DNA of 64,000 bases from Candidatus Woesearchaeota archaeon (GTDB lineage: Archaea > Nanobdellota > Nanobdellia > Woesearchaeales > JAFGLG01), in the NCBI GenBank assembly GCA_016928155.1, contig JAFGLG010000007.1, positions 1 to 64,000 on the forward strand, in the 5' to 3' direction. Below, in pieces: positions 23,140-30,259 of this stretch; positions within the stretch are counted from its first letter, which is position 1, and every line of letters begins with the position of its first letter. The notes below the pieces were generated by a model, which did not search any database, had not been told where the DNA came from, and worked only from the letters and a program-made list of their open reading frames with translations. Both the position numbers and the translations under genes were made by a program.

Positions 23140-24120
23140 TCAGTCTTCAGCCATGATATAAGCGAACATCAATGGGGCCACAATCGTGGCATCAGACTCA
23201 ATGACAAACTTTGGAGTGTCAATGGCCAGTTTCTCCCAAGTGATCTTCTCATTGGGGATAGCACCGCTATAAGATCCATAAGATGTTGTAGAGTCTGATA
23301 TCTGGCAGAAATAGCTCCATAATGGGACTTCAGTCTCCATGTCCTGCCTGATAAGCGGCACAACACATATGGGAAAGTCTCCAGCAATGCCGCCTCCGAT
23401 CTGGAAGAAACCGATCCTCTTATCCTTTGTGTTTTCGGTGTACCAGTCAATAAGCCATGACATTGTCTCAGGGCCTGATTTCACTGTGTCGATCCGCTTT
23501 ATGACGCCGCGCTTGACAGCAGCCACAAACATATTCCCTGTGGTGCAGTCCTCCCAGCCCGGCACAAATATCGGGAGATCCTTCTCGCATGCAGCTATCA
23601 CCCATGAATCCTTCGGGTCAATCTGATAAGATCCCTCCAATACTCCAGACTTGATAAGCTGGTAGATGAACTCATAAGGGAAATACCTCCTGCCCTCCTG
23701 CTCTGCCTTCTTCCAGACGACATGGAGCTGCTTCTCAATCCTCCTCATGGCCTCCTCTTCAGGGATGCAGGTGTCTGTCACCCTGTTCATGTGCCTGTCC
23801 AGCAGAGCCTGCTCATCATCAGGAGACAGGTCACGATAATGCGGGACACGCTCATAGAAATCATGCGCCACAAGATTGAAGATATCCTCCTCAAGATTCG
23901 CTGCAGTGCAGGTTATCGCATGGACCTTGCCCTGCCTTATCATCTCAGCAAGTGTCTTGCCAAGCTCAGCAGTGCTCATTGCTCCAGCCATGGTGATCAT
24001 CATCAGATTACCTTTCTTCAGCTGAGCAATGTACCCTTCAGCAGCATCCTTGACAACAGCTGCATTGAAATGAAGAAAATTTTCCTGTATGAACCTCTTT
24101 ATTGTCCTGAAATCCCCCAT
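23140..24120 (-). CDS. Deoxyhypusine synthase-like protein, copy 1
   Basis: The 326-residue protein starts at the ATG at 24120 (GGGGTGG just upstream); the open frame to 24237 adds residues with no family match. It carries the deoxyhypusine-synthase core: AGAMSTAELGKTLAEM, HAITCTAANLEED, RVTDTCIPEEEA, FVPGWEDCTTGN, FFQIGGGIAGDFPICVVPL and the catalytic-lysine region NEKITWEKL (Lys297). In copy 2 and in the family the residue before this Lys is Gly; here it is Glu. The sequence follows the bacterial DHS-like branch (SDSTTSYGSYSGAxPNEKITW). It may modify aIF5A, or act as a homospermidine-synthase-like enzyme. It lies 79 bases downstream of copy 2. Confidence 0.87.
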   Translation of the reverse strand: MGDFRTIKRFIQENFLHFNAAVVKDAAEGYIAQLKKGNLMMITMAGAMSTAELGKTLAEMIRQGKVHAITCTAANLEEDIFNLVAHDFYERVPHYRDLSPDDEQALLDRHMNRVTDTCIPEEEAMRRIEKQLHVVWKKAEQEGRRYFPYEFIYQLIKSGVLEGSYQIDPKDSWVIAACEKDLPIFVPGWEDCTTGNMFVAAVKRGVIKRIDTVKSGPETMSWLIDWYTENTKDKRIGFFQIGGGIAGDFPICVVPLIRQDMETEVPLWSYFCQISDSTTSYGSYSGAIPNEKITWEKLAIDTPKFVIESDATIVAPLMFAYIMAED

Positions 24121-24199
24121 TTTTCCACCCCATGATTTTTCTGGATGCAAAACACAAGCCCAATATAAATCTATCCTTTTATCCTGATATTTATCCCAC

Positions 24200-25207
24200 T
24201 CAGGATGCAAGGACATATGCGAAGATAAGCGGTGCAACTATCGTGGCATCTGACTCAATAACGAACTTCGGTGTATCGACACCAAGCTTGCCCCAAGTGA
24301 TCTTCTCATTCGGGACTGCTCCGCTGTAGGAGCCATAAGATGTTGTGCTGTCAGAAATCTGGCAGAAAAATGACCACAATTGCGCGGGCCTGTTCAGCCT
24401 GGGCAGATCATGATTTATCAGCGGCACCACACAGATGGCGAAATCGCCTGCAATCCCCCCACCGATCTGGAAGAATCCGATCCCTGAGTCTTTTGAATTT
24501 TCCCAATACCAGTTCACCAGGGCATGCATGTACTCGAGCCCGCTCCTGACAGTGTCAATCTTAGTCATCTTATCATTCATCAGGATCTCTGAAACAAATG
24601 AATTGCCGAGAGTGGAATCCTCCCAGCCCGGCACAAAGATGGGCAGATTTTTCTCGCAGGCAGCAATGATCCACGAATCCTTCGGATCAATCTGGAACTT
24701 CCCTTCAAGCACTCCGGACCTGATGATATTATAGATGAATTCATGCGGGAACATCCTCTTCCCTGATTTCTCTGCCCTTGACCATTCATCCACAATCTCC
24801 CTGTCAATTACCATCATCGCTTCCTCTTCAGGGATGCAAGTGTCTGTGACCCGGTTCATCCCATTCTCAAGGAGCCGGAGTTCATCATCGGGTGTAAGAT
24901 CCTTATAATCCGGGACCCTTCTATAATGATCATGAGCTACAAGGTTGAACAGATCCTCTTCAAGATTGGCACCAGTGCAGGTTATTGCGTGGACCTTGCC
25001 CTGCCTGATCATCTCAGCAAGTGTCTTGCCAAGCTCAGCAGTGCTCATGGCTCCGGCAAGGGTAATCATCATCTTATTGCCTTTCTTCAGCTGGTCCACA
25101 TATCCCTTTGCAGCGTCTTTGACAACTGCTGCGTTGAAATGAAGGAAATTATTATCTATGAATGACTTAATGACCTTGAAATCAGCTTTTTTATTCTCAA
25201 AATCCAT
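24200..25207 (-). CDS. Deoxyhypusine synthase-like protein, copy 2
   Basis: The 335-residue protein starts at 25207 after GGAGGTG, with a TATA-like ATATTTATAAAAA further upstream. All core motifs are present: AGAMSTAELGKTLAEMIRQG, CTGANLEEDLFNLVAHD, FVPGWEDSTLGN, GFFQIGGGIAGDF and NEKITWGKL, with Lys307 as the expected catalytic lysine. It is about 60-65 percent identical by eye to copy 1, and stretches of DNA near 25010-25060 are almost the same as in copy 1, which suggests tandem duplication with some conversion. This copy keeps the family-typical Gly before Lys, so it is the better candidate for the housekeeping enzyme. Confidence 0.88.
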   Translation of the reverse strand: MDFENKKADFKVIKSFIDNNFLHFNAAVVKDAAKGYVDQLKKGNKMMITLAGAMSTAELGKTLAEMIRQGKVHAITCTGANLEEDLFNLVAHDHYRRVPDYKDLTPDDELRLLENGMNRVTDTCIPEEEAMMVIDREIVDEWSRAEKSGKRMFPHEFIYNIIRSGVLEGKFQIDPKDSWIIAACEKNLPIFVPGWEDSTLGNSFVSEILMNDKMTKIDTVRSGLEYMHALVNWYWENSKDSGIGFFQIGGGIAGDFAICVVPLINHDLPRLNRPAQLWSFFCQISDSTTSYGSYSGAVPNEKITWGKLGVDTPKFVIESDATIVAPLIFAYVLAS

Positions 25208-27467: not shown

Positions 27468-27537
27468 ATTTATAAATATGTTTTTTTCTAGTGCTGATTA
27501 CCTATTGCGGGCAAGCGGAAATTATAAATTTCCGGGT

Positions 27538-27581
27538 CCGCAAAATTGAATATTAATACAAAAAGCTACTCAATTTTGCGG
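27538..27581. repeat. 12-bp perfect inverted repeat around the tRNA-Leu promoter
   Basis: CCGCAAAATTGA at 27538-27549 is the exact reverse complement of TCAATTTTGCGG at 27570-27581. The right arm includes the first four bases of tRNA-Leu and the loop holds the predicted TATA element. A separate 8-bp hairpin (CGGAAATT/AATTTCCG, 27516-27534) lies just upstream. The DNA palindrome could be a regulator site or could come from duplication of the tRNA 5' end. Confidence 0.7.
27549..27558 (+). promoter_or_regulatory. TATA-like element for tRNA-Leu
   Basis: AATATTAATA ends about 20 bases before the mature 5' end at 27578, the spacing expected if transcription starts at or a few bases before the tRNA. 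Confidence 0.5.
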
Positions 27582-27601
27582 GGGTAGCAAAGCCTGGTCA
27601 A

Positions 27602-27650
27602 TCGAAAATCGTTGATTTTCGGTGGTCTAAAATCTTCGATTTCAGACCAA
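27602..27650 (+). other. tRNA-Leu intron 1 (D loop, 49 nt)
   Basis: BHB geometry: central helix GGTC (27596-27599) with GACC (27645-27648), bulges AAT (27600-27602) and AAA (27649-27651). Removal restores GGTCAAATGC in the D arm. Inside are two hairpins, CGAAAATC/GATTTTCG and AAATC/GATTT. A second GGTC at 27624 can compete for the same GACC. Confidence 0.88.
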
Positions 27651-27666
27651 ATGCGCAGGACTCAGA

Positions 27667-27729
27667 AAAGGTCTTGCAAAGCGCAAGGCAAGAGTGCGAA
27701 ACTTAAGACCGGCAGAACGCCGTTGAGAG
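27667..27729 (+). other. tRNA-Leu intron 2 (anticodon loop 37/38, 63 nt)
   Basis: This is the canonical archaeal position. Central helix CTCA (27661-27664) with TGAG (27724-27727), bulges GAA (27665-27667) and AGA (27728-27730). The intron folds internally through GGTCTT/AAGACC (27670-27675 with 27705-27710). Confidence 0.9.
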
Positions 27730-27761
27730 ATCCTGTCTCTTAGTGGGTTCGAGGGTTCAAA

Positions 27762-27792
27762 AGGCATGCAGAGAGATCTGGTGTCATGAGAT
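27762..27792 (+). other. tRNA-Leu intron 3 (T loop 59/60, 31 nt)
   Basis: Central helix TTCA (27756-27759) with TGAG (27787-27790, one G-U pair), bulges AAA (27760-27762) and ATT (27791-27793). Removal restores the T loop TTCAAAT exactly. The class II tRNA at 30146 has an intron of the same length at the same position. Confidence 0.88.
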
Positions 27793-27806
27793 TCCCTTCC
27801 CCCGCA

Positions 27807-30145: not shown

Positions 30146-30259
30146 GCCGGCATTGGCTAACCGGTAAGCCGCAAGGTTGATACCCTTGTGTCCTTAGGGA
30201 CTTCGGGGTTCAAATAACTTTCGGTTTTTGCCGGTAGTTTGGAATTACCCGTGCCGGCG
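30146..30259 (+). tRNA. Class II tRNA with anticodon GAT and a T-loop intron (Ser-like body)
   Basis: The exons are 30146-30214 and 30246-30259. The acceptor is GCCGGCA/TGCCGGC with discriminator G. The D stem is GGCT/AGCC with loop AACCGGTA. The anticodon stem is CAAGG/CCTTG with loop TTGATAC, so the anticodon is GAT (Ile). The variable arm is 15 bases long with a GTCC-TTAG-GGAC hairpin. The T stem is CGGGG/ACCCG with loop TTCAAAT after splicing. The long variable arm plus G73 are tRNA-Ser traits, and GAT is one base from the Ser anticodon GCT. The pair at 53-61 is G against A, which is odd. It may be a functional chimera, a decaying gene or an assembly error. Confidence 0.8.
30215..30245 (+). 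other. T-loop intron (59/60, 31 nt) of the GAT tRNA
   Basis: Central helix TTCA (30209-30212) with TGGA (30240-30243, one G-U), bulges AAT (30213-30215) and ATT (30244-30246). Same position and length as intron 3 of tRNA-Leu, with unrelated interior sequence. Confidence 0.8.

Follow-up and report, generated by a model that had tools for sequence, protein, structure and literature searches.

A single leucine tRNA gene in a genome of the Woesearchaeales very probably yields tRNA-Leu(UAA) by removal of four introns and, as we judge on balance, also yields tRNA-Leu(CAG) by alternative splicing in cis, with two mutually exclusive anticodon exons; both judgements were reached by comparison of sequences. 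This design would appear to be common to at least 17 Woesearchaeales genomes in 7 families, with a switch between two folds deciding, as seems rather the better reading, which product is made. The gene lies in the window (the whole stretch of DNA that was analysed, 64,000 nt, contig C7) of a host genome of 1.48 Mb that is 99.7% complete, and its parts are listed in Table 1. An interrupted class II tRNA-Leu had been placed here by the initial annotation, and both place and identity were confirmed by splicing and by intronless relatives; its assignment of the host to the DPANN archaea was likewise correct, the nearest relatives of the host splicing endonuclease (EndA) being found in Woesearchaeota and Nanoarchaeota genomes. 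The unspliced gene (27578-27806) was not reported by ARAGORN or Rfam, and after in silico splicing ARAGORN called it as Leu(taa) or Leu(cag); automatic annotation of such genomes may give a wrong anticodon or a missing tRNA. No group I core was found by the Rfam gathering scan of the window, which returned two tRNAs only, and group I introns were ruled out on this result and on the intron lengths of 22-63 nt. Elsewhere in the window a further tRNA-like gene, missed by ARAGORN, was seen at 30146-30236 and on to about 30260. Its T loop is split by an intron of about 32 nt, its variable arm is long, and its anticodon loop seems to read GAU, which is odd for class II. Two adjacent overlapping genes of the deoxyhypusine synthase family lie at 23140-25207 on the minus strand.

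Table 1. Parts of the interrupted tRNA-Leu gene, with positions in the window
Feature	Position	Strand	Remarks
TATA-like TTATAAAT, putative, upstream of the gene	27522..27529	+	from sequence; another at 27470-27479
Interrupted tRNA-Leu gene, precursor (229 nt)	27578..27806	+	
Exon 1, acceptor 5' strand to D loop; CTGGTC 27594-27599	27578..27601	+	identical to intronless relatives
D-loop intron, 49 nt; central helix GGTC 27596-27599 / GACC 27645-27648	27602..27650	+	
Exon 2 ATGCGCAGG; CGCA 27654-27657	27651..27659	+	
Intron 30/31, proposed Leu(UAA) path, 41 nt; TGCG 27695-27698	27660..27700	+	
ACTCAGA, candidate alternative anticodon-loop exon (CAG), retained on Leu(CAG) path only	27660..27666	+	
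Intron of 63 nt, proposed Leu(CAG) path (the anticodon intron of the initial annotation)	27667..27729	+	
Exon 3 ACTTAAG, anticodon loop UAA	27701..27707	+	32/32 genomes
Intron 37/38, proposed Leu(UAA) path, 22 nt; TGAG 27724-27727	27708..27729	+	
Exon 4, base 38 to 59: rest of anticodon arm, variable arm, T-arm 5' part	27730..27761	+	
T-loop intron 59/60, 31 nt; TTCA 27756-27759 / TGAG 27787-27790	27762..27792	+	
Exon 5, T-stem and acceptor 3' strand, discriminator A	27793..27806	+	

The 49-nt D-loop and 31-nt T-loop introns stand as initially annotated, on their geometry and on comparison with intronless relatives, and removal of these two together with 63 nt of the anticodon arm does give, as had been claimed, a valid 86-nt tRNA-Leu(CAG) (in silico splice, ARAGORN). 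The further claim that the middle is one 63-nt intron was not borne out, an exon ACTTAAG lying inside it between conserved splice elements; introns in the D, anticodon and T loops were retained from that annotation, and its Leu(CAG) product with three introns only is probably incomplete. Intronless tRNA-Leu(UAA) genes were found in the relatives G019, G059, G050 and G055, with the anticodon loop ACTTAAG, and since this loop lies within the 63-nt stretch the middle was read as two introns of 41 and 22 nt, the 63-nt intron being rejected as the only path once the relatives had revealed the exon. Removal of four introns (D loop, 30/31, 37/38 and 59/60) gives an 86-nt tRNA-Leu(UAA) identical to the intronless gene of G019 at 84 of 86 positions, the three-intron CAG product being identical to it at 81 of 86; the spliced-exon sequence to be expected is GCAGGACTTAAGATCCTG on the UAA path and GCAGGACTCAGAATCCTG on the CAG path. 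A central helix is present at all four sites (CGCA/TGCG for the 30/31 intron, with cuts between GG and A and between AA and A; CTTA/TGAG for the 37/38 intron), with outer or inner helices relaxed at the D loop, 30/31 and 37/38, and the T-loop intron is a nearly canonical bulge-helix-bulge (BHB). Judged by their anatomy the introns appear to be of the ordinary archaeal BHB type. Other four-intron readings of the Leu gene were noted in G233 (L175), with an extra intron in the variable arm, and in G156 (L159), with one near 9/10, each including 30/31, 37/38 and 59/60.

Conservation of the arrangement was assessed with a 16-base probe around ACTTAAG, excluding ACTCAGA, in 352 genomes of the order, of which 36 were matched (a handful with a reversed control); after protein-coding and other non-matching probe matches had been dropped, 32 genes were kept, a gene of variant layout in G345 being left out. 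The layout of the 32 genes is CGCAGG, an intron ending in TGCGAN (GGCGAA in one), the exon ACTTAAG, an intron starting with RCY, and ATCCTG. ACTTAAG is invariant (32/32) and the intron base just before it varies, which supports the cut at that site. A helix between CTGGTC in the D loop and GACCAG at the start of the 37/38 intron (in the window gene GACCGG 27707-27712 with CTGGTC 27594-27599) covaries, with three pairs changed on both sides; in the covariation test 97.8% of cells were paired over the whole structure, and the covariation score was reached in 0 of 500 shuffles and in 0 of 5000 in another run. The recurrence of the layout in 32 genomes together with the covarying helix places the 30/31 + 37/38 arrangement beyond chance. 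Since this helix is long-range, the 30/31 intron is likely to be folded by way of the 37/38 intron, which implies an order of removal, and since the D-loop intron uses the same GGTC it would have to leave first in the window gene. The D-loop intron has counterparts at the same site and of similar sequence in the relatives G049 and G007, and T-loop introns were also found in Leu genes of relatives. A recent spread of the gene was considered and found unsupported, the intron remainders being about 37% identical between families. The D-loop intron (27602-27650) belongs to a sequence family GAAAATC...GATTTTC...AAATCTTCGATTT, also seen in tRNA-Leu(UAA) of G049, in tRNA-Leu(CAA) of G117 and, in a different tRNA and at another position, in G058, which suggests that the family spreads by intron transposition.

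The second anticodon loop was recognized at the start of the 30/31 intron, where 17 of the 32 genes, from 7 families, share an invariant ACTCAGA; the remaining 15 show 5-6 mismatches of 7, with no intermediates. Read as tRNA, the block consists of A31 (which pairs with U39), C32, U33, CAG and A37, that is, a full CAG anticodon loop, and it runs from the splice point to base 37, exactly at the canonical 37/38 cut. Bases from +8 onward are variable, the rest of the intron being only about as similar between families as given above. Two complete conserved anticodon loops are thus found in each of these 17 genes, ACTCAGA in 17/17 and ACTTAAG in 32/32. The A at 37 speaks somewhat against a CAG product, most separate Leu(CAG) genes having G37, although A occurs in 6 of 30. 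The strongest competing explanation, which we regard as possible and less probable than two products, is that only tRNA-Leu(UAA) is made by removal of four introns, and that ACTCAGA is kept for some other reason, for example the folding or cutting of the 30/31 intron. All of the UAA evidence (four-intron splice, 32-gene layout, covariation) holds equally under that explanation, and CTCAG does have a partner within the intron in some genomes, such as CTGAG in G249. However, ACTCAGA is kept even where the whole 30/31 intron measures 15-18 nt, and inner-helix pairing was ruled out as the cause of its conservation for such short introns, which lack a partner; UAA production alone also leaves it unexplained that the conserved block coincides exactly with an anticodon loop, in which C32 and U33 are joined by a purine at 37 and by an A31 able to pair with U39. 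A further point against it is the partner strand. Of the 17 ACTCAGA genes, 11 have TGAG or TGGG as 3' strand of their last intron, which allows full pairing with both CTCA and CTTA (in the window gene, TGAG 27724-27727 with CTTA 27702-27705 or CTCA 27661-27664), whereas full CTCA pairing was found in 0 of the 15 genes without ACTCAGA (Fisher p 1e-4, kinship ignored). Against a CAG product, some TGGG strands may pair inside the intron instead (G008, G156, G158), and the CTCA helix is mismatched in f52, G308, G317, G147 and G212.

For the census, Leu genes were sought with a leucine covariance model and a 3'-half pattern, in searches and targeted stretches, so that a Leu gene with introns in each of its halves may have gone unseen. 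Four Leu loci were found in this way in the host genome, namely GAG (C12:13519), TAG (C2:21383), CAA (C9:163112) and the window gene, and no other Leu(UAA) or Leu(CAG) gene was found there with the model or the pattern; another intact Leu(CAG), a possibility raised by the initial annotation, was among the genes looked for. The window gene is therefore the sole source found both of UAA, needed for UUA codons, and of CAG. The same four Leu genes were found in G147, G157, G164, G249 and G308. A separate Leu(CAG), with the loop UUCAG, was matched by pattern in 79 genomes, at least one match being false (G104); it was seen in 0 of the 17 ACTCAGA genomes and in about 76 of 319 without the arrangement (p 0.016, kinship ignored). 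Seeming separate CAG genes in G104 (C45) and G317 proved to be protein-coding sequence. Several related genomes, as production of UAA alone would allow, likewise show no CAG gene: none was found in at least five that have a 30/31 intron without ACTCAGA (G117, G102, G104, G030 and G190), and G207, with all five Leu genes, is alone among the 15 such genomes in having a separate one. In genomes with neither ACTCAGA nor a CAG gene Leu(UAG) presumably reads CUG, so that a missing separate CAG gene is not decisive, and its use as sole proof of two products was dropped. The census is compatible with and fits a second product, as distinct from proving it. In G190 (C25:4150-4500, L398) a lone tRNA-Leu-like 3' half was noted near tRNA-Leu(CAA), a fragment or an integration scar. 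As to codon usage, CUG is the commonest Leu codon of the window (27.7 per 1000) and UUA stands at 2.8 per 1000, reaching 33 per 1000 in the relative G212, whose gene is of the same type. Some 20 kb were taken per genome for the CUG/CUA bias, with a correction for the G/A bias of the other boxes. This bias was higher in ACTCAGA genomes than in other genomes with a 30/31 intron (Mann-Whitney p 0.03) and not different from that of genomes in which CAG has a gene of its own (p 0.17), at about 2 s.e. and with kinship ignored, which weakly backs a second product.

Folding energies were calculated for the window gene after removal of the D intron, and the CAG fold was defined by the anticodon stem and CTCA/TGAG. 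The CAG fold had -26.4, the minimum -27.0 and the UAA fold -21.1 kcal/mol; in G249 the values were -24.3, -24.9 and -22.3 kcal/mol, so that the CAG fold lay 0.6 kcal/mol or less from the minimum in both genomes (G000 and G249). The UAA fold is favoured in f9 genomes such as G148, with the CAG fold 11 kcal/mol above the minimum, and for most relatives the UAA fold reaches the minimum or comes close to it, which agrees with UAA as the only product. If both products are made, the UAA/CAG ratio should vary between lineages. The near-minimal CAG fold of the window gene and the valid tRNA that it would give are also what the initial annotation would predict in taking Leu(CAG) as the only product, from three introns and with the inner ACTTAAG as no exon; this is very improbable, as conservation of ACTTAAG with its flanks extends to 32 genomes, including 15 that lack CTCAG, and as UUA codons are in use and, no other UAA gene having been found, would be left without a tRNA. 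A decayed, unused gene, which heavy interruption and the failure of standard finders might suggest, is least credible of all, the stems and conserved bases of the tRNA being all intact, the design conserved across families, and an essential anticodon having been found nowhere else in a genome so nearly complete.

With both products preferred, the following scheme of cutting by EndA, ligation, and making and use of two tRNAs is proposed from the sequences, their census, conservation and covariation and the foldability of the precursors. On the UAA path the D loop would pair with the start of the last anticodon intron (CTGGTC/GACCAG) and CGCA with TGCG, whereupon EndA would excise the 41-nt intron at 30/31; the anticodon arm would next form around CUUAAG and the 22-nt intron at 37/38 would leave, and with removal of the D- and T-loop introns as well, tRNA-Leu(UAA) would result from four excisions. 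On the CAG path the ordinary anticodon stem CAGGA/UCCUG would form first and CUCA would pair with UGAG, a single 63-nt intron would be excised with ACTCAGA retained as the loop, and tRNA-Leu(CAG) would result from three excisions. The choice of product would lie between the D loop/intron helix and the anticodon stem. Concerning the enzyme, whose subunit type the initial annotation had singled out for checking, one PF01974 gene was found (C17:108065; G000:C17, L001 1264-1788), a single-unit EndA of the type of the Nanoarchaeum catalytic subunit, with N and C domains and, by alignment, the catalytic Tyr-His-Lys. Among proteins of solved structure the Nanoarchaeum equitans catalytic subunit is nearest to it (3iey_A, E 8e-38). 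Specificity loops of EndA are known (PMC12397907); the Nanoarchaeum insertion between GVxP and the catalytic His is missing from the host enzyme, so that the known loops are not obvious in it. Many relaxed introns at unusual positions were noted in the host genome despite such an EndA, and the question is raised whether highly relaxed motifs can be cleaved by a single-unit EndA that lacks the known specificity loops.

A separate origin of such introns, or their transfer from Thermoproteales, as suggested initially, is unsupported, such introns being widespread in Woesearchaeales. Multi-intron tRNAs have already been listed for Nanoarchaeum and ARMAN (PMC4033280), most of the D loop, 30/31, 37/38 and 59/60 are known intron sites (PMC4090602), and some introns of multi-intron tRNAs can be removed only in order (PMC4033280, PMC4090602, PMC8450103). 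Thermoproteales (Pyrobaculum, Thermofilum), Nanoarchaeum and ARMAN likewise have BHB introns in one tRNA at the same positions; three introns are the maximum per tRNA gene in reviews (PMC4033280, PMC8450103), in contrast to the four of the window gene, which exceed the number given there for archaea. In the tri-split tRNA-Gly of Caldivirga maquilingensis anticodon-bearing pieces can be exchanged to give synonymous tRNAs (PMC4033280). Those pieces are separate transcripts joined in trans, whereas the anticodon exons of the window gene would be parts of one transcript, chosen in cis. Neither four introns on one path, nor two conserved anticodon exons in one gene, nor a second anticodon within a tRNA intron was met in searches of open-access literature. 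We know of no earlier case in which alternative splicing of one tRNA gene alters the codon read; if both products are made, this would be the first known to us, in archaea of small genome, where gene economy matters. In eukaryotic mRNAs, mutually exclusive exons compete for one place, with competing RNA pairings. By analogy the window gene would have two competing exons and pairings, but here the molecule is a tRNA, the enzyme would be a protein endonuclease and not the spliceosome, and the exchanged part would be an anticodon and not a protein segment.
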